Source of the DNA: Christiangramia echinicola DSM 19838
Lineage (GTDB): Bacteria > Bacteroidota > Bacteroidia > Flavobacteriales > Flavobacteriaceae
DNA: 64,000 bases
Direction of reading: 5' to 3'
Assembly: GCF_000423065.1 (NCBI RefSeq)
Contig: NZ_AUHG01000010.1
Coordinates: 186,001 to 250,000 of the forward strand
The notes beneath the pieces are model-generated. The model ran no database searches and was not told the origin of the DNA. It saw only the letters and a list, made by a program, of their open reading frames with translations. Numbering within the stretch: position 1 is the first letter of the stretch; each line of letters opens with the position of its first letter. The translations under genes were made by a program, and so were the position numbers. This document shows positions 1 to 14,878 of the stretch, one piece after another.

Positions 1-3000
1 GGCTTCTAACAAAAAAGGGATGACTGTTGTATTCAGCACATATCAGTCAATAGATGTAATAGCTGCTGCACAAAAAGAATTAAAGCAACAACATAAAATC
101 AATGCTGAATTTGATTTAATCATCTGTGATGAAGCTCACCGTACCACTGGTACTGCATTAACAGCAGAAGACTCTTCACATTTTATAAAAGTTCATGACA
201 ATGAATTCTTAGAAGGAAAGAAAAGGCTTTACATGACTGCCACTCCTAGGCTATATAGTGATGATTCAAAGTCTAAAGCTGCTCAAAATGACGCTATAAT
301 CTGCTCAATGGATGATACATCTTTATATGGAGAAGAAATCTATAGGATTGGTTTTGGTGAAGCTGTTCAAAATGATTTATTATCAGATTATAAAGTACTC
401 ATACTTACGCTAAGTGATGCTGATGTACCACCTGCAATTCAAGCTATGGTAGCAAATTCAGACCAGGAAATTAATTCTGATGATGCTTCAAAGCTAATAG
501 GCTGTATAAATGCTCTTTCTAAACAAGTATTAGGTGACGAAGGATTGATAAAATCCAGTGACCCCAACCCTATGAAAAGGGCTGTAGCATTCTGCCAAAA
601 CATCAATGTTTCTCGTAAAATAACCCGAACATTTAATGATGTATCTGAACAATACTTAGATTCCATCCCACTTACAAAAAGAGAGAACCTGGTAACAGTT
701 TCCTCAAAACACATAGATGGAAGTATGTCTGCTCCTGAAAGGGATGATTTATTAGGTTGGCTAAAATCTACTTCTGCTGGTACTAATGAATCTAGAATAT
801 TAACTAATGTACGCTGTCTTAGTGAAGGTGTTGATGTCCCTTCACTTGATGCAGTAATGTTTTTATCAGCTAGAAATTCACAGGTTGATGTAGTTCAATC
901 TGTTGGAAGAGTAATGAGGAGGGCTAAGGGTAAAAATTATGGTTATATAATAATACCAGTGGTTGTTCCTTCTAATATAGAAGCTTCTGAAGCCTTGAAC
1001 GATAATGAGCGCTTTAAAGTTGTTTGGAGTGTACTAAATGCATTAAGAGCTCATGATGATAGGTTTAATGCTACTATCAATAAAATAGACCTCAATAAGA
1101 AAAAACCTAAACAGATACTAATAGGTAGACCTACTCCTCCTGATTATGTAGAAGGAGAAGAAGGGACTGGCAGTTTTGGAGAATCTGGGGAATCTTATGG
1201 TAAATTAGATAATCAATTGGCAATACAGTTTGAGCAATTACAAAGTGTAATGTATGCCCGAATGGTTAAAAAAGTTGGTGATAGAAGGTATTGGGAACAA
1301 TGGGCTAGTAGTGTTGCTGAAATTGCAGAGAAACAGGTCGAAAGAATTAATAATCTAATTGAAGAAGATGGAGAACATAAAAAATCTTTTGAACAATTTT
1401 TAAAAGGATTACAACAAAATATTAATCCAGCTATATCCCAACAGCAAGCGGTTGAAATGCTTTCACAACACATTATAACAAAACCTGTTTTTGAAGCTCT
1501 TTTTGAGGGATATTCTTTTGTAAAAAGCAATCCTATTTCTGTTTCGATGCAGACTATGCTTGATTTATTAGAAAAACAGGCGATAGAAAAGGATACAGAA
1601 GTACTTGAAAAATTCTATGATTCTGTACGAAGAAGAGCTGAGGGCATAGACAATGCAGAAGGGAAACAACGTATTATTATAGAGTTATATGATAAGTTCT
1701 TTAAAACAGCTTTTCCTAAAATGGTTGAACAGCTAGGTATCGTTTATACCCCTGTTGAAGTAGTAGATTTTATTATCCACTCTGTAAATGATATTCTAAA
1801 AAAAGAATTTGGTAGAGGTATATCCGATGAAAACGTTCATATTTTAGACCCATTTACTGGAACTGGAACATTTATGACTCGTCTTCTTCAAAGTGGATTA
1901 ATAAGTAAAAAAGACCTGGCTAGAAAATACAAACATGAATTACATGCTAATGAATTAGTCCTTCTTGCCTACTATATTGCAGCTGTTAATATTGAAAACA
2001 CATATCATGATTTATTAGGTAAGGACGAAGAATATGAAACCTTTGAAGGTATAGTCCTTACAGATACTTTCCAATTAGGTGAAACACAATCTGGTGAAAA
2101 ACTTTTTTCTGAAATGTTTCCAAAAAATTCAGAAAGAGTAGAAGCTCAAAGAAAAGCTCCCATTCGAGTAATAATTGGAAATCCTCCATATTCCATAGGA
2201 CAAAAATCTGCAAATGATAACGCCGCCAATCAAGGCTATGAAAAATTAGATTCTCGCATTTCAGAAACGTATGCTAAAGATAGTAACGCTACATCTGTTA
2301 AAGCTCTCTACGACGCCTACATCAAAGCGTTCAGATGGTCTTCAGATAGATTAGATAGTGATAATGGAGGTGTGATTTGTTTCGTTTCAAACGGAGCTTG
2401 GCTCGATTCAAATGGCATGGATGGTTTTAGGAAACGGATGGAGAAAGAATTTTCATCTATTTATGTTTTCAACTTACGAGGAAACCAACGTACTTCTGGA
2501 GAATTATCGAGAAAAGAGGGGGGAAAGATATTTGGTTCTGGGTCGCGGACACCTATATCCATTACTTTACTTATTAAAAATCCTAATCACAAAGGAAGTG
2601 CACAAGTTCAGTATCATGATATTGGTGATTACCTAAGTAGAGAAGAAAAGTTGAAAATTATTTCTAATTACAGTACAATACAAAACGTTGATTGGAAAAC
2701 TATAAATCCTAATGAACATGGTGACTGGTTAAATCAAAGGAGTATAGGTTTTGAAGAGTTCCCTCCTATTCAAGCAGATAAAAAGTTTAACTTAAAAAGT
2801 AATTCATTTTTTCTAACCCATTCTTTGGGTACCGCCACCTCAAGGGATGCTTGGGTTTTTAATTTTTCAAAGTTAAAGGTTAAAGAAAATATGGTTAGAA
2901 TGATTGATTTTTACAATCAACAAAGACTAGATTATCAAAAAGCATCACTCAATAATGATAATTTACATTTCGACCAGTTTATCTCAAATGATTCTACAAA

Positions 3001-4009
3001 AATTAGTTGGAATTACTCTCTTAAGAGGTCTTGCGAACAAAATAAAGAGCGAGCTTATGAAGCTTCTGAAATGATAAAGGGGCTATACAGGCCTTTTACA
3101 AAAATGAACCTTTATTTTGATAAAAATTTTATCCAACGTCCTTATCAACAACCAAAATTTTTTCCTCTACCAGCAGTTGAAAATAAACTTATTTGCTTAT
3201 CAGGATTAGGGTCTAATAAGAGTTTTTCTTGTTTGATGAGCAGTAATATTCCAAGTCTTGATACAATAGAAAAGGCTCAATGTTTCCCCCTTTATTATTA
3301 TGAATTAAACGAGCAAGCTCAAGGAAGCCTTTTCGATGAAAACACTAAGTCTAAATATCACAGGAGGGATGGAATTAGCAACTTCATATTGGATAGGGCT
3401 AAAAATCAATACGGAAAAAATGTCGTCAAGGAAGATATCTTCTATTATGTATATGGAATCTTACATTCTTATGATTATCGCAACACTTTTGCTAATGATT
3501 TAAAGAAAATGCTTCCGAGAATTCCATTAGTAGATGAACCCAGAGATTTCTGGAAATTTAGTAAAGCTGGCAGAAATTTAGCAGATTTACATATGAAATA
3601 TGAAGATGTTCTTCCATTTGAAGAGGTTGAAATCAACCATCTACAAGAAAATAGCAAGGGAGATGATTATGCATATTACAGAGTACAAAAACTAAAATTC
3701 CCCAAGAAAAATCAAAAAGATAAGATTATATACAACAGTCGAATAGTGCTTGAGAATATTCCTGAGAAGGCTTATGAGTATATTGTAAATGGTAAAAGTG
3801 CAATTGAATGGATAATGGATAGATATCAGGTAAAGAATGATAAGAAAAGTGGAATTAAAAATGACCCTAATAATTGGTCTAAAGAGGTAGAAAATCCAAA
3901 ATATATTCTAGATTTACTCCTAAGCGTTATAAACGTCAGCGTTCAAACTGTAGATATTGTAAATGGCTTGCCTGAATTAAAATTTGAAGAGGAAATGGAG
4001 GCTGTTTAA
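1..4009 (+). CDS. Type ISP-like restriction enzyme, helicase-methyltransferase (5' partial)
   Basis: This is the C-terminal 1335 or so residues of a large single-chain restriction-modification enzyme; the frame is open through the left window edge, so the start and any N-terminal nuclease are missing. Numbering from the Met at base 20: Walker B box DEAH near residues 37-40, motif TATPR near 73-77, and late helicase motifs SEGVDVPSLD and QSVGRVMRR near 270-300. An adenine-methyltransferase domain follows with SAM motif DPFTGTGTF near 610 and catalytic motif NPPY at 721-724. The remaining ~500 residues would be the target-recognition region. The order helicase, coupler, N6-methyltransferase, recognition domain matches Type ISP enzymes (LlaBIII/LlaGI group), which translocate along DNA and cut when two converging enzymes collide. 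It is the first visible gene of a same-strand defence string. A Type I/III fusion variant is the alternative. Confidence 0.85.
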   Translation, partial: ASNKKGMTVVFSTYQSIDVIAAAQKELKQQHKINAEFDLIICDEAHRTTGTALTAEDSSHFIKVHDNEFLEGKKRLYMTATPRLYSDDSKSKAAQNDAIICSMDDTSLYGEEIYRIGFGEAVQNDLLSDYKVLILTLSDADVPPAIQAMVANSDQEINSDDASKLIGCINALSKQVLGDEGLIKSSDPNPMKRAVAFCQNINVSRKITRTFNDVSEQYLDSIPLTKRENLVTVSSKHIDGSMSAPERDDLLGWLKSTSAGTNESRILTNVRCLSEGVDVPSLDAVMFLSARNSQVDVVQSVGRVMRRAKGKNYGYIIIPVVVPSNIEASEALNDNERFKVVWSVLNALRAHDDRFNATINKIDLNKKKPKQILIGRPTPPDYVEGEEGTGSFGESGESYGKLDNQLAIQFEQLQSVMYARMVKKVGDRRYWEQWASSVAEIAEKQVERINNLIEEDGEHKKSFEQFLKGLQQNINPAISQQQAVEMLSQHIITKPVFEALFEGYSFVKSNPISVSMQTMLDLLEKQAIEKDTEVLEKFYDSVRRRAEGIDNAEGKQRIIIELYDKFFKTAFPKMVEQLGIVYTPVEVVDFIIHSVNDILKKEFGRGISDENVHILDPFTGTGTFMTRLLQSGLISKKDLARKYKHELHANELVLLAYYIAAVNIENTYHDLLGKDEEYETFEGIVLTDTFQLGETQSGEKLFSEMFPKNSERVEAQRKAPIRVIIGNPPYSIGQKSANDNAANQGYEKLDSRISETYAKDSNATSVKALYDAYIKAFRWSSDRLDSDNGGVICFVSNGAWLDSNGMDGFRKRMEKEFSSIYVFNLRGNQRTSGELSRKEGGKIFGSGSRTPISITLLIKNPNHKGSAQVQYHDIGDYLSREEKLKIISNYSTIQNVDWKTINPNEHGDWLNQRSIGFEEFPPIQADKKFNLKSNSFFLTHSLGTATSRDAWVFNFSKLKVKENMVRMIDFYNQQRLDYQKASLNNDNLHFDQFISNDSTKISWNYSLKRSCEQNKERAYEASEMIKGLYRPFTKMNLYFDKNFIQRPYQQPKFFPLPAVENKLICLSGLGSNKSFSCLMSSNIPSLDTIEKAQCFPLYYYELNEQAQGSLFDENTKSKYHRRDGISNFILDRAKNQYGKNVVKEDIFYYVYGILHSYDYRNTFANDLKKMLPRIPLVDEPRDFWKFSKAGRNLADLHMKYEDVLPFEEVEINHLQENSKGDDYAYYRVQKLKFPKKNQKDKIIYNSRIVLENIPEKAYEYIVNGKSAIEWIMDRYQVKNDKKSGIKNDPNNWSKEVENPKYILDLLLSVINVSVQTVDIVNGLPELKFEEEMEAV

Positions 4010-4055: not shown

Positions 4056-5918
4056 ATGATTCAAAATACTGATAACAAACCACTATCAGAGTTATTTAGT
4101 GGTGACAACAATGTTACATATTACATACCAAAATATCAACGAGAATATGTTTGGAGTAAATGGAACTGGGAGGCTTTATTTGATGATATCCTGGAAAGTG
4201 AAGGAGGACATTTTTTAGGTTCTATTATCTGCATAAACACTGAAACAGATTCGCACAAACCAGCAAATTTAGAGCTTGTAGATGGTCAGCAGAGAATGAC
4301 AACTATAAGTCTATTATACCTAGCTATCTATAAGTTTCTTCAAAACACTCTAGTTCCAACTGAAGATGAAGAAAAAGAACTGGATAATAAACTAAAATTA
4401 TTTAGCCTCAGGAATAGAATTATAATCAAGGACAAGAAAAAACCAAGGTTATCACCTTCTTATTCTAACCATAATTTTGAAGATTATAGTTGGATTTTTG
4501 CAGATAACATATCCGAATTAAAACACATTAAGAAACCTAAAAATTTAGGGAATAGAAGAATAAAAAAGACCTTCAACTATTTTTATGATAGACTTTCAGA
4601 GGTAGATGAAAATGATGAACCATTATATGATTTTAAAAGCGCTTTAGCATTATTAAATAAACTTAATAGTGCTACTATAGTAAAAATAGATGTTGCTACT
4701 CATGCAGATGCTTTCACATTGTTTGAAACCCTAAATAACCGAGGAGTTCCTCTTTCTGCTATAGATATTATTAAAAATAAATTGCTTGGGCATTTAGAAA
4801 AAACAGAAGATGAAACAAGTCTTGATGCTAACTATAATAGATGGAATGATATAATTCAAAATTTAACTGAAGAATATAAAGTACAGGAAAGATTTTTAAG
4901 GCAGTTCTATAATGCATTTAAACTTGAAAAAGTTATTGAAGTACCTAAAATACCTAAAGCATTACGTTCTAATCTTATTACGATTTATGAGTCATTAATA
5001 AATAAAGATGTTCATACCATATTTGATAGATTAGAAGAGGCCTCAGAAATTTACAATAAAAATATAGTCTACAACTCAGACGAACATTCTTTTGAGCTTA
5101 TAAGAGCTCTGAGGGATTTGGAAAATGTAAATGGAGCTGATGGTTATATGCTACTACTTCATGTAGAAAAAAATTATACAATTGCAGAGAAGGAAAAAAT
5201 TCAGCTGATTAAATTACTCTGCAAATATTTCATAAGAAGAAATGTTACTGATACACCGCCTACAAGAGATTTAACCAATCACTTTATGGATATTATCAAA
5301 GAGGTTAATAATCTTGATGAATATGATTATGAGAAAGTAGAGTCAATTATTCTGGATAAAGGTAAACCTGCTACAGATGAATTTTTTGAAGAGAAATTAA
5401 AAGGTAATATTTACGAAGAAAATGTAGGCGCCACTAGATATATCTTGTCTTCAATTGAACTAGATAAAAAAGAAACAAAAGAATTATACACCAACTTTTA
5501 CGCAAGAGATAAGAAGAAATTTGTCTGGACTATTGAACATATATTCCCTCAGGGAGAAAATATACCTGAGCACTGGATAAAAATGGTTGCCGATGGAGAT
5601 AAAACTGAGGCAGACCAAATAAGAAGAAATCAAGTACATAAATTAGGGAATCTTACCCTAACGGGCTACAATTCTAGATTAAGCAATTCTCCACTTGATA
5701 TTAAACAGAATAAGAAAAATAAAGAAGGAAAATTCATAGGATTTAAAAATGGTCTATGGATAAATGAAGCCATTAAAGATATTGATGCATGGAAAGAAGA
5801 AAATATAATGAAAAGAACCGATAAATTAGTTAGTGAGGCATTAAGGATTTTCAGATTAAATGAGGGGGCAGAAAAAACAGAGAAAAAAGTTGACGTCAAG
5901 TTGTCAAGTTTAAATTGA
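4056..5918 (+). CDS. GmrSD-like DUF262/DUF1524 protein
   Basis: A 620-residue protein with an N-terminal DUF262 domain (PKYQREYVW at residues 25-33, then DGQQR at 76-80 followed by MTT) and a C-terminal DUF1524 domain (EHIFPQ from residue 494, then HKLGNLTLTGYNSRLSN). DUF262 is a ParB/Srx-like nucleotide-binding domain and DUF1524 is an HNH-type nuclease; together in one chain they define the GmrSD family, whose studied members cut modified (glucosylated hydroxymethylcytosine) phage DNA using NTP. Both signature motifs are intact, so activity is plausible; the substrate here is unknown. It starts 46 bases after the Type ISP gene with no promoter seen in the gap, and its stop is 45 bases before the TIR-APAZ gene, in the same frame. 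It might instead work as an accessory to the upstream restriction enzyme; the sequence does not decide this. Confidence 0.85.
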   Translation: MIQNTDNKPLSELFSGDNNVTYYIPKYQREYVWSKWNWEALFDDILESEGGHFLGSIICINTETDSHKPANLELVDGQQRMTTISLLYLAIYKFLQNTLVPTEDEEKELDNKLKLFSLRNRIIIKDKKKPRLSPSYSNHNFEDYSWIFADNISELKHIKKPKNLGNRRIKKTFNYFYDRLSEVDENDEPLYDFKSALALLNKLNSATIVKIDVATHADAFTLFETLNNRGVPLSAIDIIKNKLLGHLEKTEDETSLDANYNRWNDIIQNLTEEYKVQERFLRQFYNAFKLEKVIEVPKIPKALRSNLITIYESLINKDVHTIFDRLEEASEIYNKNIVYNSDEHSFELIRALRDLENVNGADGYMLLLHVEKNYTIAEKEKIQLIKLLCKYFIRRNVTDTPPTRDLTNHFMDIIKEVNNLDEYDYEKVESIILDKGKPATDEFFEEKLKGNIYEENVGATRYILSSIELDKKETKELYTNFYARDKKKFVWTIEHIFPQGENIPEHWIKMVADGDKTEADQIRRNQVHKLGNLTLTGYNSRLSNSPLDIKQNKKNKEGKFIGFKNGLWINEAIKDIDAWKEENIMKRTDKLVSEALRIFRLNEGAEKTEKKVDVKLSSLN

Positions 5919-5963: not shown

Positions 5964-7319
5964 TTGGATAGAGATACAATTTTTATAAGCCATGCAACTC
6001 CTGAGGATAATAGCTTTACAATTTGGCTTGCTTCCAGATTAAAAAGTCTAGGCTATAAAGTTTGGATAGATAAAGAGGGTCTATTAGGGGGTGAGACATT
6101 CTGGCAAGAAATTGATGGGATTATAAGAAATAGAGCGGTAAAATTCCTATTAGTTTATAGCAATAATATCTGCTATAATCAGGAACCAGGCAACCTAAAG
6201 TCTGGAATTAGAGATGAATTAGAATTAGGAAAAAGTATTGGGAGAAAAAATGGCTTAAAAGATTTTATAATCCCTTTAAAAATTGATGATTCTCCGTATG
6301 ATTTATTTGTAGGAGCTAACACTTTAAATCATATACATTTCGCTGATAATTGGGCAGAGGGTTTAAAAATTTTAATTCAAAAACTTAAAAAAGACAATAT
6401 TCCCAATCAATCTAATGAAAGCACAGTAATTAGCGAATGGTTTGAAAATGAATACACCAGTAGTAAAGGTATTATACCTAAAGAAGAACTCTATTATTCT
6501 TCTTGGTGGAGTTTTGAAGAATTACCTGAGAATATTTATATAAATAGATACGACAATAAAAATCAGGCTGAATGCATTTATTCTTTGAATTCCTCAATTC
6601 CAATAGGAAAAATATCTAATGTATTAACCACCTTCTCAGATAAGCTTGAAAATATAGTAATTAGTGATAGCGGTGAAGAATTTACAGTTGAACCAAAAGA
6701 ATCTTATACCTTCAATCTTGCAGAGGTATTACTAGGAACGGAGAGAAATGCTTTTCCTACCGATAGAGACATTCAAAATCATTTTAAGAAACTCCTTAGA
6801 AGAACCTTTCACCTCTTAATGAGAAAACAAGGCTTATATTGGTACTCAATGTCAGGCAAAAATCTCTCCTATTATTTTCCAAAAGATTTATTACCTAAGG
6901 ACCAAGTTTATTTTAAATATCCCATCAAAAAAGGAGGAAAAAAAAGAAAGAAGCTTCTAGGAAAACATAAAAGCCTGAAATGGCATTACTCTATTTCGCA
7001 AATACCTATTCTAAATCCCATTTTAGGCTATAGCATCAAACATCATTTAATATTTACATCTGATGGCCATAAGCCTTTAGATGATAATAAAACGATGCAT
7101 TCCAATAGAAGAGCTAAAGGAAAAAGATTCTTTAATGAAGAATGGAGAGATTTACAGTTAGCATTTATACAAGGATTAAAGAACAGAAAGGGTCAAATAT
7201 CAATTGAATCAGGAGCAGCACAAAAAATTGTAATGAAAGAGTACCCAGAATATTATTGGGCAGAATTTGGCTATAATGAACCAACTAAAGAGCTACAAGT
7301 AGAAGATAATGACAACTGA
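5964..7319 (+). CDS. TIR-APAZ effector of a SPARTA-type short Argonaute system
   Basis: A 451-residue protein. Residues 1-140 form a TIR domain: opening strand TIFISHATPED, then SLGYKVWIDKEGLLGG and FWQEIDGIIR, then KFLLVYS. Residues ~150-451 resemble the APAZ region, which replaces the N and PAZ domains missing from short Argonautes; that call rests largely on gene order and length. In SPARTA, TIR-APAZ forms a heterodimer with the short Argonaute; guide-RNA recognition of invader DNA triggers oligomerisation and NAD(P)+ hydrolysis, killing or arresting the cell. Glutamates 44/49 and 85/87 are candidates for the catalytic residue; I cannot choose without an alignment. The start is TTG: it gives the expected short N-terminus, and no ATG is in frame between the upstream stop and the domain. 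The 3' end overlaps the Argonaute gene by 11 bases. Confidence 0.88.
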   Translation: MDRDTIFISHATPEDNSFTIWLASRLKSLGYKVWIDKEGLLGGETFWQEIDGIIRNRAVKFLLVYSNNICYNQEPGNLKSGIRDELELGKSIGRKNGLKDFIIPLKIDDSPYDLFVGANTLNHIHFADNWAEGLKILIQKLKKDNIPNQSNESTVISEWFENEYTSSKGIIPKEELYYSSWWSFEELPENIYINRYDNKNQAECIYSLNSSIPIGKISNVLTTFSDKLENIVISDSGEEFTVEPKESYTFNLAEVLLGTERNAFPTDRDIQNHFKKLLRRTFHLLMRKQGLYWYSMSGKNLSYYFPKDLLPKDQVYFKYPIKKGGKKRKKLLGKHKSLKWHYSISQIPILNPILGYSIKHHLIFTSDGHKPLDDNKTMHSNRRAKGKRFFNEEWRDLQLAFIQGLKNRKGQISIESGAAQKIVMKEYPEYYWAEFGYNEPTKELQVEDNDN

Positions 7320-8820
7320 TTTATTTCATATTGAGGAACCGAAACTAACCTTTGGTTATAAACAGAAAATGATTGACCCGCGAGACGGAATCACCTTATT
7401 TGGTCCTAATTCTAATCATAAAATTTCAGGTAAAATTAATATTGGAGTAATTGGCACGGAAATATCACGTGAAAGGATGATTTCTTACCTGCAGAAAATC
7501 CATAAACCTGTTGAAAGTTTAGATAATGATAAAGCTAGGCCAATGTTCCCAGGCTTAGAAGCTGCCTATGGTATTAATATAAATTTTGAAAATATTGCTT
7601 CTATTAATGTCCCTACTGAAGATATAGAAGAGTTCTTGCATTATACCGACAGCCACCAAAGGGTTCACAACTTAACTAATCTATTTGCAGATAAAATTTT
7701 TAACTATGTAAGAAGGGAAGAGAATCCAGTAACTATTTGGTTTATTGTCATACCCAAAGAAATTTACTTATATGGGCGACCTAATTCAAGAATACCTTCA
7801 TCAGATGAGAATATAAAAATTGGATTAAAAAAGAATGAAAGAAATTCTCAACAGGTCTCATTATTTTTTCAAGATGAAAATAAGAAATTACAGGAGGCAT
7901 ATAAGTATCAGGTGAATTTCCATAATCAGCTAAAAGCTAAACTCTTACAAGAAAAAATAATTTCACAAATTATCATCGAGGACAAAATAGCTTATGAAGA
8001 AATTTGGGATGATGAAACTAAGATAGATTCTGAGAAGAAATTTGATTCCGCTAAAGCCTGGAATATCTCAACTACCTTATATTATAAGTGTGGTGGTTTG
8101 CCTTGGAAATTAGGAGATGTGAGAAATGGAGTATGTTATTTAGGATTAGTATTTAAAAGATTGAATGAGGACGCCAATCATAAAAATGCTTGCTGTGCTG
8201 CCCAAATGTTTTTGGATTCTGGAGATGGGATGGTATTTCGGGGTAACGTAGGTCCTTGGTTTAATCCTGCTAAAAATGAATTTCACTTAAGTAAAGATGA
8301 TGCATTTGAAATAATTTCTCAATCTTTAGAAGCTTTTAAAGATTATTCAGGAGATTATCCTAAAGAAGTATTTATCCATGCAAAAACATATTTTGAGAAT
8401 GCAGAATGGAAGGGATTTACTGATGCTACAGAAGGTAAGAGTAAAATAATTGGTATTAGAATAAGAGACGATTCTGCTTTTAAGTTGCATCGAAATTTTT
8501 CCTATTGTGTTCCACGAGGGAGTGTAATGTCAATTAATTCTGACAAGGCTTATGTATGGACTCGTGGATTTATTCCTCGTTTGCAAACCCAGTTAGGTCT
8601 GGAAGTACCGAATCCTTTAAGTGTTGAAATTACAAGAGGTGAAAGTAATATCAGAGACGTTTGTAAAGACATACTAGCATTAACTAAATTGAACTATAAC
8701 ACTTGCTCATATGGTGATGGAATACCTGTCACTTTAAAATTTGCAGAATCAATCGGAGAAATTCTTACTGCTGGTAAGGACGTAAAGTCATCAGTTCTTC
8801 CCTTCAAACACTATATATAA
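7309..8820 (+). CDS. Short prokaryotic Argonaute (MID-PIWI) of a SPARTA-type system
   Basis: A 503-residue protein with only MID and PIWI regions. Recognisable PIWI blocks are GGLPWKLGD (residues 262-270), then VCYLGLVFKR, and HAKTYFENAEW beginning near 357, with a C-terminal YGDGIPVTLKFAE block. The first PIWI strand reads VCYLGLVF with no aspartate, so the nuclease tetrad of slicing Argonautes appears broken; this is normal for short pAgos, which sense rather than cut. The length is typical of short pAgos and far below the 700-plus residues of long ones. The ATG lies inside the end of the TIR-APAZ gene (11-base overlap), which implies coupled translation and a 1:1 complex. Known members use small guide RNAs to bind single-stranded DNA from plasmids or phages. 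Whether this one uses RNA or DNA guides cannot be read from sequence. Confidence 0.92.
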   Translation: MTTDLFHIEEPKLTFGYKQKMIDPRDGITLFGPNSNHKISGKINIGVIGTEISRERMISYLQKIHKPVESLDNDKARPMFPGLEAAYGININFENIASINVPTEDIEEFLHYTDSHQRVHNLTNLFADKIFNYVRREENPVTIWFIVIPKEIYLYGRPNSRIPSSDENIKIGLKKNERNSQQVSLFFQDENKKLQEAYKYQVNFHNQLKAKLLQEKIISQIIIEDKIAYEEIWDDETKIDSEKKFDSAKAWNISTTLYYKCGGLPWKLGDVRNGVCYLGLVFKRLNEDANHKNACCAAQMFLDSGDGMVFRGNVGPWFNPAKNEFHLSKDDAFEIISQSLEAFKDYSGDYPKEVFIHAKTYFENAEWKGFTDATEGKSKIIGIRIRDDSAFKLHRNFSYCVPRGSVMSINSDKAYVWTRGFIPRLQTQLGLEVPNPLSVEITRGESNIRDVCKDILALTKLNYNTCSYGDGIPVTLKFAESIGEILTAGKDVKSSVLPFKHYI

Positions 8821-8862: not shown

Positions 8863-8893
8863 CAAAAAAAACCCTCTACAAAAATGAAGAGGG
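8863..8893 (-). terminator. Rho-independent terminator for the minus-strand gene at 8911
   Basis: Stem arms CCCTCT (8872-8877) and AGAGGG (8888-8893). Read on the minus strand the hairpin is followed by a run of eight T. It ends the transcript of the 8911-9405 gene and also separates it from the converging defence genes. Confidence 0.8.
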
Positions 8894-8910
8894 ATTCTAA
8901 TAAGACTATT

Positions 8911-9405
8911 TTAATTTATTACAATTCTATCTATCAATTTATTTAGTTCAGAGCTATTTAATTCATTAGTCGTCAAATTAAAAATGTAACTTTTTTGTTT
9001 ATAGAGTAATATTATAGAAGTGTTTTTAAATTTATTTCCAGAATAAGTCAAGTAAGATTCAGTTTTTAAAGCCTTCCTTTGGTTATTCAATTTAATATAT
9101 TCGGCATTTTCACCATTTGCAATAGAATTACTCCTTGCCGATTGTAAAAACTCATCCTTAAAAACTTGAAGGGAACTTCCAGTAAAACCTTTCATTTCTT
9201 CAAACAGATTTTGAACAGTAATTGAATACTGAAAAATCTTGTTATCGGATTTTTGTATAACACAGCTGTAATTATTCTGATTTCCCAAATTTCTGGTATA
9301 CTCCAACTCACAAGGAGTATCTATTACTATTCCTTCAATTTTATTTTTTGTTTGACCAAAACTTAAGATTGGAATTAATATTCCTAAAAAGAAGATTTTT
9401 CTCAT
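8911..9405 (-). CDS. Secreted protein of unknown function
   Basis: A 164-residue protein not recognised as any family. The N-terminus MRKIFFLGILIPILSFGQ is a clear Sec signal peptide, with likely cleavage after the FGQ region, so the mature protein is periplasmic or secreted. Two cysteines lie in the mature part, near residues 32 and 48, and could form a disulfide. The middle is polar and Asn/Lys-rich; the C-terminal third alternates hydrophobic and polar residues as in beta strands. It is the last of three same-strand genes in the island and is followed by a good terminator. The 26-base gap to its upstream neighbour suggests co-transcription. No defence-related motif is visible. Confidence 0.7.
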   Translation of the reverse strand: MRKIFFLGILIPILSFGQTKNKIEGIVIDTPCELEYTRNLGNQNNYSCVIQKSDNKIFQYSITVQNLFEEMKGFTGSSLQVFKDEFLQSARSNSIANGENAEYIKLNNQRKALKTESYLTYSGNKFKNTSIILLYKQKSYIFNLTTNELNSSELNKLIDRIVIN

Positions 9406-9431
9406 GTTTGTAAATATTTATCTTTTGCTAT

Positions 9432-10145
9432 TTAGTTCATACTTATAGGTACAAACTTAAATTTGAGGTTCTTAATTGGTTTTTCTTTCGAATAATTCTT
9501 TAGAGAGTAATTAAATGTACTCGTTTCTAAGTCTAACAATAGACCACCAGGAATAACTTGACCCGACCATTTATTATAAACATTAGGTTCTTCATAAGGT
9601 ACTTTTTCTATAGGGTCTATATTAGAGTATTCTTCTGGATTGTAGAATTTCATAAATATATCTGCTCCTCTTTTCTTGTACTTGGTAAGATTGTTAGAAA
9701 TTTCTATTTCATCAAGAGCTTCTCCTTCTGCTATAATCTGCTGGTAATCCTCATTAGTCAATTCTGAATCATCAAATTCATCTAACTCCTGGTAGCCAAC
9801 AAATCCTTTAGAGGTGAAAAACATGACATAATATATAGGGTTATCTACCCCTTTATTTATTGAAGCTAGATAATATCCATCTCTCCTCAAATCATACTTA
9901 TACAAAGAATTTCTTGCCGAGGAATCACCAATATTATTTTTTGTAGATGGATTCTCTTGATTACTGGAAGATTCATTTACTTTATCGATAATAAGACCAA
10001 TAATATAGCCCCAGAATACACCATTTACAATTCCAACAAAGAAAATCATACCAACATCTAAGGATGAATCTGAGCCTAAAAATGCAAATGTCAGTATTGT
10101 GGAAATAATGGCTCCTATCCACCAGGAGTAATTGACAGCTTTCAT
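9432..10145 (-). CDS. Membrane-anchored protein of unknown function
   Basis: A 237-residue protein not recognised. Two hydrophobic segments are at the N-terminus (residues ~7-25 and ~30-54, the second rich in Gly and aromatic residues), followed by a polar linker with an NESSSNQEN run and a cytosolic or periplasmic domain of about 160 residues that is acidic and aromatic. The 10-30 region resembles the hairpin of small inner-membrane proteins. It lies between two other unknown genes of the same strand, with gaps of 19 and 26 bases, so the three probably form one operon. Low-GC codon use matches the island rather than the core genome to the right of the tRNA. Confidence 0.65.
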   Translation of the reverse strand: MKAVNYSWWIGAIISTILTFAFLGSDSSLDVGMIFFVGIVNGVFWGYIIGLIIDKVNESSSNQENPSTKNNIGDSSARNSLYKYDLRRDGYYLASINKGVDNPIYYVMFFTSKGFVGYQELDEFDDSELTNEDYQQIIAEGEALDEIEISNNLTKYKKRGADIFMKFYNPEEYSNIDPIEKVPYEEPNVYNKWSGQVIPGGLLLDLETSTFNYSLKNYSKEKPIKNLKFKFVPISMN

Positions 10146-10164
10146 AATTTTTATAATTTATAGG

Positions 10165-10617
10165 TTAATAAATGCTATAGGTAACAATCGGAATAATAAT
10201 TAAAAGGAATGTTAGCATACAACCTGAGTTTTTAACAGGACTTCCCGTTTGTGACCTGCTAACTCTTTGACGTGTAAAATTCATTACTAATTGAGCGTGG
10301 TCTGGATTCGCATTATGCTTGTTCATCACTTCTGCAATAGTGGTAATCCAATCTTCCACAGGCATATCTCTATATATACTATCCCCTGTAGTTTTAGCCT
10401 TTTCAGTTAGGCCTTTGTAAGTGGCGAAAGAGACATATACAAAGTCCTCATGCTTATTGAGATTGATATAGATATCACCTAATCTATTACCGAAAACTAT
10501 ATAAGACATGATGTGGGAATAGACGTTAGAATTACTTTTAAACAAAGTTAAATCGGTGGTATCCTTCATTTGAGCTATTGCTGTAGCATAGTTTGGAAAT
10601 TCATTTTCTAATTTCAT
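10165..10617 (-). CDS. Tail-anchored protein of unknown function
   Basis: A 150-residue protein not recognised. The first ~125 residues are soluble, with no signal peptide; the last ~18 (LTFLLIIIPIVTYSIY) are strongly hydrophobic, so it is probably held in the membrane by a C-terminal tail with the bulk of the protein in the cytoplasm. It is the first gene of a three-gene minus-strand group and is divergent from the XRE regulator at 10702. The 84-base gap between them has a palindrome at 10651-10668 that could be the site of that regulator. Confidence 0.65.
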   Translation of the reverse strand: MKLENEFPNYATAIAQMKDTTDLTLFKSNSNVYSHIMSYIVFGNRLGDIYINLNKHEDFVYVSFATYKGLTEKAKTTGDSIYRDMPVEDWITTIAEVMNKHNANPDHAQLVMNFTRQRVSRSQTGSPVKNSGCMLTFLLIIIPIVTYSIY

Positions 10618-10650
10618 TTTTGATTAGTTGGTTAGATTTTGACAATAAAA

Positions 10651-10668
10651 ATAGGCAAATATGCCTAT
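10651..10668. promoter_or_regulatory. Palindromic operator candidate between divergent genes
   Basis: Arms ATAGGC and GCCTAT surround a six-base AAATAT spacer, midway between the divergent starts at 10617 and 10702. The size and position fit binding by a small XRE-type dimer, most simply the neighbouring regulator. This is inference from symmetry and place only. Confidence 0.5.
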
Positions 10669-10684
10669 AATATAAATATGAAGC

Positions 10685-10706
10685 TCCACGACTTTTAACT
10701 CGTGGA
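10685..10706 (+). promoter_or_regulatory. Inverted repeat overlapping the regulator's start codon
   Basis: Arms TCCACGA (10685-10691) and TCGTGGA (10700-10706) with an eight-base spacer. The GTG start codon proposed for the XRE gene (10702-10704) lies inside the right arm. The hairpin in mRNA could hide the start, or the same bases in DNA could be an autoregulatory operator. Confidence 0.45.
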
Positions 10707-10932
10707 ATATTTAAATGAGAAAGACTTTTTAATTGCATTCGGTAAAAACCTAAGAATAGTTAGAAAAGCCCAAGGTTTTACCCAAGCACAACTAGCCAAT
10801 GACATTGGCGTAGAAATCTCTCAAATCAGTAGAATTGAAAGAGGGATAATAAATACATCTGTAGGGAATGCAAATGCTATCGCTAAAGCACTAAAAGTAG
10901 ATATAAAGGACTTATTCTTCCTAAAAAATTAG
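10702..10932 (+). CDS. Small XRE-family HTH transcriptional regulator
   Basis: A 76-residue protein that is essentially one Cro/CI-type helix-turn-helix domain: FGKNLRIVRKAQGFTQAQLA, then EISQISRIERG and a C-terminal NANAIAKALKVDIKDLF helix pair. The start is GTG, and the in-frame upstream region offers nothing better. Such proteins are dimeric repressors of islands, phages and restriction-modification loci. It sits between the unknown minus-strand operon and the integrase, transcribed towards the integrase, so it may control either one or the defence genes. Two symmetrical sequences immediately upstream are candidate sites for it. It could equally be a restriction-modification controller (C protein) for the ISP enzyme, but the distance of almost 7 kb argues against that. 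Confidence 0.85.
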   Translation: MEYLNEKDFLIAFGKNLRIVRKAQGFTQAQLANDIGVEISQISRIERGIINTSVGNANAIAKALKVDIKDLFFLKN

Positions 10933-11004: not shown

Positions 11005-12201
11005 TTATTTCTTTAGCTTATTGGTTAATTCATCCATTACAAGGCCTACCTTTTTCTGTACAATCTTACCATAATAATCCTGTGTTATTTGCATACTAGA
11101 ATGACCTAATAACTCACTGACAATTTCCATGGGTACATCATTAAAAAGTAATACAGTAGTAGCGAAAGTTCTCCTAGCTACATGATGAGTTAGATTAGTT
11201 TCAATTCCAACAATTACTGCTATTTCTTTCAAATAAGCATTAATCTTCTGGTTACTGTACGAGGGAAATATTAACTCTTTATGACCTGAATATTTATATA
11301 TGATTTCATTTGCTTTCTGTAGCAATGGGATAGACAAATTCTTACCCGTTTTTTCTCTCCTTATCTGAATCCAAGGTTTTCCATCGAAATTTTGAATGAT
11401 ATGTTTTTTCCTCAACTCCTTCATTTCTCGATACGCTAATCCTGTATAGCAGCAAAAAATAAAGAGGTCTCGTACCAATTCTAACCTGGATAATTTGAAA
11501 TCATAAGTTTCTAGGGTCTCTAGTTCATCAACAGAAAGGTAAGTAACCACTTTTCTGACTCTTTTAGGCTTATATAATGTGAATGGATTGGAATTTATCA
11601 AACCTTCAGCATAAGCCACCTTAATCACTTTTCTAAGACGCTGTATTGACTTATTAATGGTTATTTGCTTCTGCCCTTTCTCGGTCTTTAGATAATAATC
11701 AAAATCCTCTAAAAACTGAGGTTTTAATTCTTCTAATGCAATATCATTTTTTTTGTATTTAGACCTCATAAATTTTCTTAGGTCCTTTTCGATATATTCA
11801 AATTTCTTGTAGGTGGATTTTTTTAGTTCCTTACCGATTAAACTTTCAAGTTTTTCTAGGTAAGAATTGTAGAATTTAACCAAATGTGGCTTGTCATACC
11901 CTGGCTTGCTTAAATACTTATTCGCAATATCTTGAACAGTAAAAGTGTCTCGTTCCAATTCTAGAGAGATATAAGCTTTTTGAATTTTACTTCGTATTAT
12001 CTCCAAATTTGAATTGAACAAACCATCATTTTCCACTGTTTGTAATTTAGAATTCCATTTTTTAGGGTCTACCATTAAACCTGAAGAAAATTCTTTACGC
12101 TTCTTTTTATAGGTCAATCTACATTTTAAAGGGCACAGTCCCTTTTGATTTGTTTTTGCCAAATAGGCAACGAATAAAATTGATAGTTTGGAATAATTCA
12201 T
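11005..12201 (-). CDS. Tyrosine recombinase / island integrase (Bacteroidota type)
   Basis: A 398-residue site-specific recombinase that would insert and excise the island. The N-terminal arm-binding segment (LCPLKCRLTYKKKRKEFSSG) is followed by a SAM-like core-binding domain (~100-200) and a C-terminal catalytic domain. Visible catalytic parts are CCYTGLAYREMKEL, the HHVARRTFA box (His-x-x-Arg), LLGHSS, and the nucleophile in DYYGKI. The first catalytic arginine box has Ala in TGLA, a common variant in Bacteroidota integrases. The ATG at 12201 is preferred over a TTG at 12225, which would only add eight residues. The gene ends at a terminator, and its upstream side faces the tRNA-Asn with repeated short motifs between, as expected for an attP-derived region. 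Confidence 0.92.
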   Translation of the reverse strand: MNYSKLSILFVAYLAKTNQKGLCPLKCRLTYKKKRKEFSSGLMVDPKKWNSKLQTVENDGLFNSNLEIIRSKIQKAYISLELERDTFTVQDIANKYLSKPGYDKPHLVKFYNSYLEKLESLIGKELKKSTYKKFEYIEKDLRKFMRSKYKKNDIALEELKPQFLEDFDYYLKTEKGQKQITINKSIQRLRKVIKVAYAEGLINSNPFTLYKPKRVRKVVTYLSVDELETLETYDFKLSRLELVRDLFIFCCYTGLAYREMKELRKKHIIQNFDGKPWIQIRREKTGKNLSIPLLQKANEIIYKYSGHKELIFPSYSNQKINAYLKEIAVIVGIETNLTHHVARRTFATTVLLFNDVPMEIVSELLGHSSMQITQDYYGKIVQKKVGLVMDELTNKLKK

Positions 12202-12250
12202 ACCAATTGATTTTAAGTTAAACAATTGGCATACTCTCGGATAGTTAAAT

Positions 12251-12425: not shown

Positions 12426-12434
12426 ACTTTTTTG

Positions 12435-12508
12435 CTCCTCCTCTTGGGCTCGAACCAAGGACCCTCTGATTAACAGTCAGATGCTCTAACCAACTGAGCT
12501 AAGGAGGA
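12435..12508 (-). tRNA. tRNA-Asn (GTT)
   Basis: A 74-base cloverleaf on the minus strand. The acceptor strands TCCTCCT and AGGAGGA pair, with G as the discriminator base. The D-arm contains AGCTCAGTTGGTTAGAGC, the anticodon loop reads CTGTTAA with anticodon GTT, and the T-arm is CTTGG-TTCGAGC-CCAAG. CCA is not encoded. The 3' half is the presumed attachment site of the adjacent island: the gene is intact, so the integrated element must have restored its 3' end. Confidence 0.97.
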
Positions 12509-12686
12509 GTGTTTTGCTCTGAAAGCGGTTGCAAATATAAATCAAATTTTAAATGCTGTCAAAAGATTTTTTCGATTTTTTTCGAAGAATTTTTATATCG
12601 ATTTGAATCTTACGGATAGTCAACAAATTACAGATTCTTTATTGTTTAATTTATTCTGGAATTAGCTTTTAAAAAACCTCTACAAA

Positions 12687-12716
12687 TAAAAAAGCAGCGC
12701 GATAGCACTGCTCTTT
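12687..12716 (-). terminator. Terminator of rseP
   Basis: Arms AGCAG (12693-12697) and CTGCT (12708-12712) with an additional inner GC pair. Read on the minus strand, the hairpin is followed by six T. It is 20 bases after the rseP stop. Confidence 0.75.
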
Positions 12717-12736
12717 TATATTATAAACTAATTCTC

Positions 12737-14053
12737 TTATTCAAATAACCAACGGTAAATATCATTCCCGTTCGCGTATAATACCAGTGCGATCAATAAG
12801 AAGAAACCTACCATCTGTGCGATCTCCATGAACTTATCATTAGGTTTTCTACCTGTTATCATTTCGTACATTAGGAACATTACATGCCCGCCATCAAGCG
12901 CCGGGATTGGAAGTATGTTCATAAAAGCAAGGATAATTGAAAGCAATGCCGTTGTATTCCAGAAACCATACCAGTTCCATGCATCTGGGAAAAGTCCGCC
13001 AATTGCACCAAATCCGCCTAATTGAGTTGCTCCCTTTTTTGTGAATACATATTTGAACTGGTATACATAATCTCTTAATGTCCAGTATCCATAATCAAAA
13101 CCTTTACTAATACTTTGCGTCAAGCCGTAGCTGTTTCTCTGTATATCAAAATCGTAATTTTTAACAAAACCTAGCTTTCCTTCTTCATTTGGCGTGATTG
13201 AAGTGCTCTTGATCTCTCCATCTCTTTCATAAACCAGCTCTACTTCTTTCTCCTTATTCTCCATAGAAACCGGGGCCAGTTCATGCCAGTATCCAATTTC
13301 AACATTATTCAAAGAGATGAGTTTATCTCCTTTTTTAAGGCCAGCTTTTTCAGCTGCAAGTCCAGGCTGAATGGAATCGAGCACAGGAGCCATAATAGGA
13401 ACGAATGGCTGCATTATTCCCTTCTCAAACATTTGAGTTCCGATCTCCTCAGGGACACTGATGGATTCCTCTTCACCATTCTGATGCAAAACCGTAATAT
13501 TTTCAATACCTCTCATAAAGAGATGTTTATTAATATCCAGGCTGTTTTCGAAATCCTTTCCGTTTACCTTCAAAATTCTGTCTCCATCCTGAAAACCATA
13601 TTCTTCAAAAGAATCTACTACGGCAAATCCTTTCGGCATCTCTTCAGGTCCAACATGAGCGGTACCCCAAACGAAAATGATCATCATATATATAAGAAAA
13701 CCTAAAACCAGGTTTACGGTAACCCCACCAAGCATAATAATAAGTCGCTGCCAGGCCGGTTTGCTTCTAAACTCCCATTCCTTAGGTGGTAGAGCCATTT
13801 GCTCCTTATCCATACTTTCGTCGATCATCCCGGCGATCTTCACATATCCCCCTAAAGGCAACCAACCAATTCCGTATACAGTTCCACCAATTTTTTTCTT
13901 AAAAAGGGCAAACTTAACATCGAAGAAAAGAAAGAACTTTTCAACTCTGGTCTTAAAAAGTTTAGCAGGAATAAAATGTCCCAATTCGTGTAAAACGATA
14001 AGGAAAGAAAGGCTTAATATTAATTGTATGGCTTTTACTAAAAATGGATCCAT
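12737..14053 (-). CDS. rseP: RseP-type site-2 intramembrane zinc metalloprotease
   Basis: A 438-residue inner-membrane protease of the S2P family, which cuts membrane-embedded anti-sigma factors and remnant signal peptides. The zinc motif HELGH is at residues 22-26 in the first membrane helix; the second zinc ligand region NILPIPALDGGH is near 385-395 in a late helix. Between them are two PDZ-like regions: one begins around FAVVDSFEEYGFQDGDRILKVNG, the other around SIQPGLAAEKAGLKKGDKLISLN. Topology and length agree with Bacteroidota RseP. It has its own promoter and terminator, so it is monocistronic. It is the first core gene right of the island. Symbol by family resemblance; the sigma-factor target is unknown. 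Confidence 0.93.
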   Translation of the reverse strand: MDPFLVKAIQLILSLSFLIVLHELGHFIPAKLFKTRVEKFFLFFDVKFALFKKKIGGTVYGIGWLPLGGYVKIAGMIDESMDKEQMALPPKEWEFRSKPAWQRLIIMLGGVTVNLVLGFLIYMMIIFVWGTAHVGPEEMPKGFAVVDSFEEYGFQDGDRILKVNGKDFENSLDINKHLFMRGIENITVLHQNGEEESISVPEEIGTQMFEKGIMQPFVPIMAPVLDSIQPGLAAEKAGLKKGDKLISLNNVEIGYWHELAPVSMENKEKEVELVYERDGEIKSTSITPNEEGKLGFVKNYDFDIQRNSYGLTQSISKGFDYGYWTLRDYVYQFKYVFTKKGATQLGGFGAIGGLFPDAWNWYGFWNTTALLSIILAFMNILPIPALDGGHVMFLMYEMITGRKPNDKFMEIAQMVGFFLLIALVLYANGNDIYRWLFE

Positions 14054-14079
14054 CGAGTAACTTCAAATTTAAAATCGCA

Positions 14080-14110
14080 CAAAAGTAAGTTTTTAAAAGC
14101 TCCTACAAAA
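14080..14110 (-). promoter_or_regulatory. Bacteroidota-type promoter of rseP
   Basis: On the minus strand, TTTTG (14106-14110) and TACTTTTG (14080-14087) are spaced 18 bases apart, matching the TTTG-N19-TAnnTTTG pattern. The start codon is 26 bases downstream of the -7 box. Confidence 0.75.
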
Positions 14111-14183
14111 GTTTATGTTTCAAGTGATTTGTTCAAATATGAAAAATTCACAACAAGAATTCGACTATTTAAACCACAGGCTA

Positions 14184-14191
14184 TAACTTTG
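14184..14191 (+). promoter_or_regulatory. Promoter -7 element for the Sco-like gene
   Basis: TAACTTTG fits TAnnTTTG exactly and lies 15 bases before the ATG at 14207. It decides the start: the longer reading frame from an ATG at 14129 would begin upstream of its own promoter. Confidence 0.65.
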
Positions 14192-14206
14192 CAGAAATTT
14201 AAACTT

Positions 14207-14878
14207 ATGCTCAAGTTTTTTGCACGATACAAAACCTTTGCCATAGTTTTCTTTATCCTTTCAGTAATTATAATTTATATAATTTATACACTGAAGGTGC
14301 CCAATGAAAAACTACCCGTTTACCAACCAGATATGGTAAATGCCGAACTGGTTGATTCTACCGTACAATATGTTCGGAAATATCATAAAATCGCCGACTT
14401 CGACCTCGTGAATCAAAACGGGGATACCATTACCGAGGAAGATTATAAAGACAAGATCTATATCGCCGACTTTTTCTTTACCACCTGCCTCACGATCTGC
14501 CCTATCATGACAGATCATATGATCAAGATCCAGGAGAAGATCAAAAATGATGATGAAGTACTGCTGCTTTCACATACCGTTTTTCCGGTGGCAGATAGCG
14601 TTCCGGTTTTAAAAGAGTATGCATTAGAAAAAGGAGTGATAGACGAAAAGTGGAATCTGGTTACCGGGGATAAAAAGGAGATCTATGAACTTGCCCGAAA
14701 GTCTTACCTAGCCACAAAATCTACCGGTGATGGTGGCCCTTACGATATGATCCATACCGAAAACTTCATTTTAGTTGATAAAAACAGACAAATAAGAGGT
14801 TTTTATGACGGTACAGATCCCAAAGCTATAGAGAGCCTTATGCACGACCTGAAAGTGCTTAAAGGCGAGCAGCACTAA
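14207..14878 (+). CDS. SCO1/SenC-family copper chaperone-like protein
   Basis: A 223-residue protein with one N-terminal membrane anchor (residues ~9-28) and a periplasmic thioredoxin-like domain. The copper-site motif CLTIC has cysteines 94 and 98 followed by Pro, and the distal histidine is H183 in MIHTENF. All three Sco ligands are therefore present. Sco proteins deliver copper to cytochrome oxidase CuA or act as thiol reductases. A 275-residue reading from 14129 exists, but a good promoter box at 14184-14191 makes the ATG at 14207 the likely start. It is divergent from rseP and upstream of feoAB, with its own promoter. No cytochrome oxidase genes are in view, so its partner is elsewhere. 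Confidence 0.85.
   Translation: MLKFFARYKTFAIVFFILSVIIIYIIYTLKVPNEKLPVYQPDMVNAELVDSTVQYVRKYHKIADFDLVNQNGDTITEEDYKDKIYIADFFFTTCLTICPIMTDHMIKIQEKIKNDDEVLLLSHTVFPVADSVPVLKEYALEKGVIDEKWNLVTGDKKEIYELARKSYLATKSTGDGGPYDMIHTENFILVDKNRQIRGFYDGTDPKAIESLMHDLKVLKGEQH

Follow-up and report, generated by a model that had tools for sequence, protein, structure and literature searches.

A probable accessory cassette for membrane and exported proteins in a tRNA-Asn mobile element of Christiangramia echinicola

Described systems and the Christiangramia locus

Ltp of Streptococcus thermophilus TP-J34 is an exported lipoprotein of a prophage lysogeny module that prevents DNA injection, according to its description (PMC3952083). 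In the case of mycobacteriophage Sbash, the lysogenically expressed genes 30 and 31 provide a tested prophage-mediated defence, as reported in PMC6426596. Here, we analyzed three adjacent genes, P0003, P0002 and P0001 (the trio), of Christiangramia echinicola DSM 19838. They lie in a 64,000-nucleotide stretch of contig NZ_AUHG01000010.1 (positions 186,001 to 250,000), which is referred to below as the window. The trio is part of a mobile element integrated in tRNA-Asn and is no free-standing operon. Very probably, it is an accessory cassette that belongs to this element, begins directly behind a conserved palindrome, probably bound by an Xre-type regulator, and is exchanged as a whole between two junctions, one on the operator side and one on the replication side. 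This assignment is based on att repeats, uninterrupted integration sites in relatives, a conserved core and palindrome, sharp homology breakpoints, turnover of the slot behind the palindrome, and a bias of the slot towards predicted membrane and exported proteins.

The locus was compared with the closest described systems. It resembles that of Ltp, a membrane-tethered exported protein encoded in a lysogeny module beside the integrase end of a mobile element (PMC3952083, excerpt), and the trio likewise lies in the regulator and integrase region of its carrier. It differs in that the cassette is divergent from the regulator and that no phage structural gene was recognised in the carrier. The trio had no significant match in PHROGs, Pfam or NCBIfam that would relate it to superinfection exclusion; no direct comparison with Ltp was made. 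The Sbash system is similarly a gene pair that includes a predicted membrane protein (gp31, four transmembrane domains) and lies near the prophage ends with repressor and integrase genes (PMC6426596, excerpt), but its host belongs to another phylum and family searches gave no homology. With phage-inducible chromosomal islands (PICIs), as far as the excerpt of PMC6092414 describes them, the element shares a specific att site, an integrase, a master regulator beside a divergent transcript, replication genes, accessory slots and the lack of recognised phage structural genes. In contrast to them, it is 19.8 kb rather than about 15 kb long, and its integrase (-) and xre (+) genes are convergent, whereas they run in the same direction in Gram-positive PICIs (both after PMC6092414, excerpt). 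Its replication module consists of AAA_24, DUF3871 and DUF5906, with no terminase or packaging gene recognised. SPARTA (short prokaryotic Argonaute with TIR-APAZ) adjoins the trio in the same island and exchangeable interval, but on the opposite strand and in convergent orientation. We found no published description of this element or slot in the open-licence literature, which was covered mostly at the level of listings.

The tRNA-Asn element and its exchangeable interval

The element measures 19.8 kb from end to end and is bounded by a 28-bp direct repeat. In four of the five genus relatives tested (G001, G005, G007 and G016), the flanks join across the same 28 bp; therefore, the site is empty of this element there. 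In the fifth relative (G011, locus L167), tRNA-Asn seemingly holds another insertion, with a different integrase (23% identical) and, by eye, a Mob-like gene and an RND-type transporter. Rightward from the trio, the order is the divergent Xre gene, the integrase gene and tRNA-Asn; the trio starts 84 bp from xre, and the integrase is the next gene past it. The left part encodes a 122-aa protein, AAA_24, DUF3871 and DUF5906 proteins, and a GIY-YIG/NUMOD protein. The label "SSB-like", which we use for the 122-aa protein, is our own and is based on a sub-threshold OB-fold match (E 0.046). No phage structural genes were recognised among the open reading frames (ORFs) scanned, the cargo being scanned with Pfam and PADLOC only, and no packaging gene (terS) among the core genes scanned; cos sites were not searched. 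In phages, no counterpart of the SSB-like protein was found. For DUF3871, the matches were one plasmid and two short unannotated records of a phage collection, which do not settle the kind of element; the literature match for this family concerns iron, according to its abstract.

A search with P0002 identified a full-length match in Salegentibacter sp. 24 (L002, 52% identity) and an N-terminal one in S. salarius (L003). A profile of the Xre protein had 25 matches at E 1e-12, spread over 23 of the 299 genomes of the family. Those located within such an element were our own and six others (L069-L072, L074 and L075), while 17 weaker matches were dropped, as the fetched stretch contained no SSB-like, AAA_24 or DUF3871 gene. 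A search with the palindrome added G009 (L157) of the same genus. The resulting set consisted of ten elements: the window, L002, L003, L069-L072, L074, L075 and L157. Two short contigs without integrase (L152 and L153) were excluded from the counts. The integrase was seen in nine elements (not in the fetched part of L071), as was the SSB-like gene (not in the fetched part of L002); a second att copy for L002 was not found in its fetched stretch.

In each of the ten elements, the Xre gene is divergent from the first slot gene, at a distance of 73-93 bp (265 bp in L069). Each of these gaps contains the palindrome TAGGCA-W-A-T-W-TGCCTA, which occurs once per fetched locus. It is present in 2 of the 24 genomes of the genus, our own and G009. 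The palindrome with its flank pattern was found in none of the viral contigs and, among 138 genomes of the order, only in our own. It is probably bound by the Xre protein of the element; we infer both the binding and the direction of regulation. The palindrome is followed by T's and could also form an RNA hairpin, on which covariation cannot decide because the arms are invariant. A remnant of such an element is found in L073 (about 16900-17250; reverse strand 2655-2990), where an orphan Xre gene and a perfect palindrome, TAGGCAAATTTGCCTA, occur without integrase or replication genes.

To locate the breakpoints, eight element pairs were compared. In five of them, the sequences match on the left up to a point 21-29 bp short of the slot gene, and on the right they match again from 25-65 bp ahead of the SSB-like gene. 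The respective distances are 27 and 65 bp for the window with G009, 29 and 65 bp with L003, 29 and 25 bp with L069, 29 and 30 bp with L072, and 21 and 26 bp for G009 with L070. The window and L003 share a 64-bp piece within the slot, which is the start of the two-helix domain described below. Between L069 and L070, homology ends 186 bp before the annotated first gene of L069 (the element with the long gap), at the start of that of L070, and it resumes 256 bp before the SSB-like gene. For L002 and L003, which have the two-helix part in common, the left homology ends 11 bp before the slot gene. The window and L002 have the slot in common, and their homology continues into it. Turnover is seen between the window and G009, where AAA_24 and DUF3871 are 93.6% identical and Xre 92% identical, with no slot gene in common. 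In the eight elements aligned (the window, in its left flank, and L003, L069, L070, L072, L074, L075 and L157), the roughly 100 bp that precede the SSB-like gene include a conserved stretch, TCAACCCCCACTC with its neighbours, which is possibly a promoter or a replication origin.

The exchanged interval of the window comprises the trio and all three defence cargoes. A preliminary description of this DNA had placed the trio in a defence island and proposed it as a candidate for an undescribed membrane-acting defence or regulatory module. The location is correct, as SPARTA, GmrSD-like and type ISP genes occupy the same interval. That the trio itself is a defence module or is tied to SPARTA is unsupported by any result. 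Trio and SPARTA are not co-directional, and they do not travel together: SPARTA is absent from the fetched 20.8 kb of L002, where the P0003-P0002 pair recurs. P0001 is absent behind that pair; thus, the trio is not a fixed unit. At L002:11499-13003, a Pycsar cyclase and a two-helix effector are encoded on the opposite strand behind the P0002 homologue, one 234-aa gene away, in a position comparable to that of SPARTA behind the trio. The pair is near defence genes in both complete cases, the window and L002, the latter being the only other pair found. Because both cases belong to one kind of element, this company provides no independent evidence of a defence role. It results from the common location of these genes in a single exchangeable interval of a mobile element, to which the control region belongs. 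In the eight other elements, the slot reaches the SSB-like gene directly. Homologues in housekeeping contexts, named in the preliminary description as an argument against a defence role, were not seen.

Trio proteins and contents of the slots

The trio is transcribed in the order P0003, P0002, P0001. The three ORFs are co-directional on the minus strand, and the gaps of 19-26 bases described earlier were confirmed (26 bases between P0001 and P0002, 19 between P0002 and P0003). On the coding strand of 8894-10620, the longest open run was 241 codons, compared with 154 in the best of 500 mononucleotide shuffles, so the trio ORFs exceed chance length. P0003 and P0002 are real proteins, since they are conserved in Salegentibacter: P0003 with 69% identity (L002; dN 0.21) and P0002 with 52-58% identity (dN 0.34), dS being saturated or undefined in both cases. 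A distant homologue of P0003 is encoded in L072 (22% identity, hhalign probability 94.5%). No homologue of P0001 was obtained in any search made. Matches to it in G154 and G313 were rejected, as they contain stops and no ORF there is P0001-like.

Signal and membrane calls were made by simple hydropathy and signal-like N-termini rather than a dedicated predictor, so they give predicted locations only. By these calls, all three proteins are predicted to be exported or membrane-located, in agreement with the secreted, two-helix and tail-anchored types proposed before. The N-terminus of P0001 resembles a signal peptide. In P0002, the N-terminal part contains two hydrophobic segments, of which the second is clear (19-residue hydropathy 2.1) and the first is weaker (1.49) but kept in relatives, and P0003 has a single C-terminal one at residues 131-149. 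The charges that flank the P0002 helices suggest that both adjoining ends are cytoplasmic, and the C-terminal domain is accordingly predicted to be cytoplasmic. Downstream, a hairpin (8872-8893, CCCTCT...AGAGGG) is followed by T8 on the trio strand only. It is therefore a good terminator for the trio and not clearly the shared one reported at 8863-8893; that role was rejected for the SPARTA direction. The automated scan omitted this hairpin, as its loop exceeds the size limit of the scanner.

As stated in the preliminary description, the genes are unrecognised. None of the libraries (Pfam, NCBIfam, PADLOC and PHROGs) names them; the best E was 0.018, and curated cut-offs, where they exist, were not reached. 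A PADLOC scan of the three proteins gave no match to curated defence models. Single-protein searches of viral contigs, plasmids and phages were empty, as were profile searches of viral contigs with the two-helix domain and P0003. Solved structures, when searched by sequence, yielded either no matches or weak ones, which were taken as chance. A lipoprotein of G125 has about 40 residues in common with the C-terminal part of P0002 (hhalign probability 35%, kinship unproven).

The two-helix domain of P0002 is joined to three unrelated C-termini, one of them nuclease-like: the P0002 C-terminal part in the window and L002, an unrelated part in L003, where only the first 58 residues of P0002 were matched, and, in G376 and G033, an extended nuclease-like region. 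The nuclease assignment is weak in the library test, which used the G376 protein: Pfam DUF559 (E 0.0015) and PDDEXK_1 (E 0.006) were both below the cut-off, and PADLOC gave a Cas4-like nuclease at E 0.002. The G376 gene lies near an integrase and a MobC-like gene (by eye) in a mobilizable-looking island, and the G033 gene among methylase-like genes (by eye). At E 0.01, the two-helix profile matched 112 of 397 genomes; at E 1e-15, it matched only our own, G376 and G033. The remaining matches (E 1.9e-4 or worse) were taken as chance matches to membrane helices and were not checked singly.

The ten slots contain 26 ORFs, of which 21 are predicted membrane or exported proteins, compared with 81 of 182 host ORFs (Fisher p 0.0006) and 71 of 147 host ORFs of at least 100 aa (p 0.0025). 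These p-values are only a guide, because the hydropathy rule is simple and ORFs within a slot are not independent. For genes from the SSB-like gene onward, the count was 5 of 54. An 82-aa ORF over the control region of L069 was left out. The count of 21/26 was used in place of 29/45 versus 6/85, which mixes elements with and without Xre. Every slot holds at least one predicted membrane or exported protein, and in nine it is the first gene. An all-against-all comparison of the slots revealed relatives only for P0003 (L002 and L072) and P0002 (L002 over its full length, L003 in the N-terminal part). In the eight elements other than the window and L002, the slot contains other envelope-directed proteins and leads directly to the SSB-like gene; PADLOC gave no match for the 7 of their 21 slot proteins scanned.

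Possible functions of the cassette

The favoured reading is that the trio, under the control of Xre, excludes rival phages or elements at the level of the envelope; we put its probability at roughly 0.35-0.4. It is modelled on prophage exclusion proteins and favoured because of the position by the regulator and integrase, the predicted location of the proteins and the turnover. In such a mechanism, Xre would gate transcription of the cassette. The tail anchor of P0003 and the two-helix anchor of P0002 would hold soluble domains at the cytoplasmic membrane, on its inner face, with P0001 acting beyond that membrane. Together, the three proteins would make it harder for competing phages or related elements to enter or become established, and quick replacement of cassettes would follow from changing rivals. 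The topology, a three-protein complex, the exclusion phenotype and Xre binding are all proposed parts of this scheme.

Several findings weigh against exclusion. The family library searches gave no homology of the trio to known exclusion or defence proteins, and AlphaFold models were unusably poor (mean pLDDT, the predicted local distance difference test, about 40). Transcription of the trio is divergent from that of the regulator and perhaps repressed. The slot of G009 begins with a soluble protein, and the remnant in L073 has a soluble protein behind its palindrome. The slot proteins differ in kind, with a TPR lipoprotein, secreted orphans and some soluble proteins among them, which fits passenger genes too. 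The same rule gives a high host background, with 42-51% in two further samples (64/153 and 26/51). The bias is uneven in related elements without Xre, with 0/4 in L146, 2/4 in L125, 4/9 in L126 and an empty slot in L127; in two further ones, L123 and L124, 1/1 and 2/2 proteins are predicted to be membrane or exported.

An alternative is plain passenger genes, for which the slot would be a landing place behind a regulated promoter and would bring in assorted envelope or stress functions of the host that have no relation to phages or rival elements. This explanation is tentative as well, though nearly as likely as exclusion. Many slot proteins look like ordinary secreted proteins or lipoproteins, some members are soluble, and membrane or exported proteins are frequent in the host itself. 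Against it, the site at the proposed Xre operator and the presence of an envelope protein in each of the ten slots suggest a narrower selection, and full relatives of P0003 and P0002 were found only in such elements.

The cassette might also be the first part of an early transcript and aid establishment, excision, replication or exit at the envelope, which we consider unlikely. The slot is divergent from Xre. It runs in the same direction as the SSB-like gene, 119-244 bp ahead of it, in seven cargo-free Xre elements (L003, L069, L070, L072, L074, L075 and L157), and overlaps it in L071. Such genes would be expected to be as conserved as the core. However, the slot has been replaced between the window and G009, whose AAA_24 and DUF3871 are still 93.6% identical. 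The trio of the window is also set apart from the core by a terminator and about 10 kb of cargo on the opposite strand.

A membrane-acting abortive infection system, in which P0002 or P0003 would sense infection and damage the membrane, is very unlikely. Membrane-anchored proteins do lie beside SPARTA, GmrSD-like and restriction genes, the L002 pair lies beside Pycsar, whose effector model is likewise a two-helix membrane protein, and the two-helix domain occurs in a nuclease-like fusion. On the other hand, PADLOC is blank for all three proteins, a domain with three unrelated C-termini is anchor-like rather than pore-like, and P0001 is missing behind the L002 pair. A small Xre gene beside small membrane proteins is a common look of toxin-antitoxin systems, but Xre as antitoxin with membrane proteins as toxins is highly improbable here, as Xre is divergent in all ten elements instead of sharing an operon with its partner, is conserved though the supposed partner changes, and lies near the integrase in nine of ten.

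Exclusion can also be set in a wider and rather unlikely frame, in which the Xre-gated promoter would be a plug-in socket for envelope exclusion cassettes exchanged behind the operator, and the modular two-helix anchor would bring soluble domains, nucleases among them, to the site of foreign DNA entry at the inner face of the membrane. If so, the trio would represent one of these cassettes, and the slot would generally supply undescribed membrane-level systems against rivals. Defence islands are usually mined via guilt by association; in the present case, a mobile element with a defined socket accounts for the association, and a sharper rule is to inspect the block of genes that follows TAGGCA-N4-TGCCTA. 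Unnamed envelope proteins fill this slot across successive elements, with SPARTA as a neighbour here and Pycsar in a related element. Should the cassettes exclude rivals, the socket would offer a natural series of variants in which to look for barriers at the membrane in Bacteroidota; otherwise, the case would be a warning that proximity to defence genes argues weakly.

Table 1. Features of the trio locus, its carrier element and the two-helix fusion genes (window positions unless a locus is named).
Feature	Position	Strand	Remarks
P0003, first slot gene	10165..10617	-	150 aa; soluble N-terminal part and C-terminal membrane anchor (predicted)
P0002, second slot gene	9432..10145	-	237 aa; N-terminal two-helix domain (about residues 1-58) and C-terminal domain
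P0001, third slot gene	8911..9405	-	164 aa; predicted secreted, orphan
Hairpin and T-run, trio terminator	8864..8893	-	
End of homology with four sister elements	10644..10646		27-29 bp before P0003; left edge of exchangeable interval
Palindrome TAGGCA-N4-TGCCTA	10652..10667		16 bp; proposed Xre operator; one site in this genome
Second inverted repeat, TCCACGA-N8-TCGTGGA	10684..10707		Overlaps xre start; less conserved than the first
Xre-type regulator	10702..10932	+	Divergent from trio
Tyrosine integrase of the element	11005..12225	-	
att core, 3' end of tRNA-Asn (12434-12508, -)	12434..12461		28 bp; second copy at G000:C1:178654-178681, left of window
Short pAgo of SPARTA	7309..8820	+	Cargo in exchangeable interval
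TIR-APAZ of SPARTA	5964..7319	+	Cargo
GmrSD / HEC-06-like protein	4056..5918	+	Cargo
Type ISP restriction-modification protein	20..4009	+	Cargo; listed ORF begins within the gene; full 1633 aa, starts left of window
Two-helix anchor and nuclease-like region (G376)	L012:4586-6478		630 aa; two PD-(D/E)XK-like motifs by eye
Two-helix anchor and nuclease-like region (G033)	L043:11968-13836		622 aa; two PD-(D/E)XK-like motifs by eye

Related arrangements were observed outside the ten-element set. A few of the 17 dropped Xre loci, for example L077:124-3679 and L082 (reverse strand 12661-14778), encode in succession an integrase, an Xre of lower similarity and a protein predicted to be exported or in the membrane, with no SSB-like module in the fetched stretch; perhaps the same layout is used more widely. 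The SSB-like profile matched 29 of 395 genomes of the order and one viral contig (L123), which contains an integrase, a membrane protein and an SSB-like gene, with no Xre match. Of 31 further SSB-like loci fetched, 24 had no AAA_24 gene directly after, and none had an upstream Xre match. Among those loci listed, the cargo lies mostly between DUF3871 and the SSB-like gene, and Xre is found just downstream in at least three (L140, L143 and L151). A second gene order (integrase, AAA_24, DUF3871, cargo, SSB-like) was seen in many loci of the order (L128-L151), with large and variable cargo; the intervals between DUF3871 and the SSB-like gene are possible unexplored defence hotspots.
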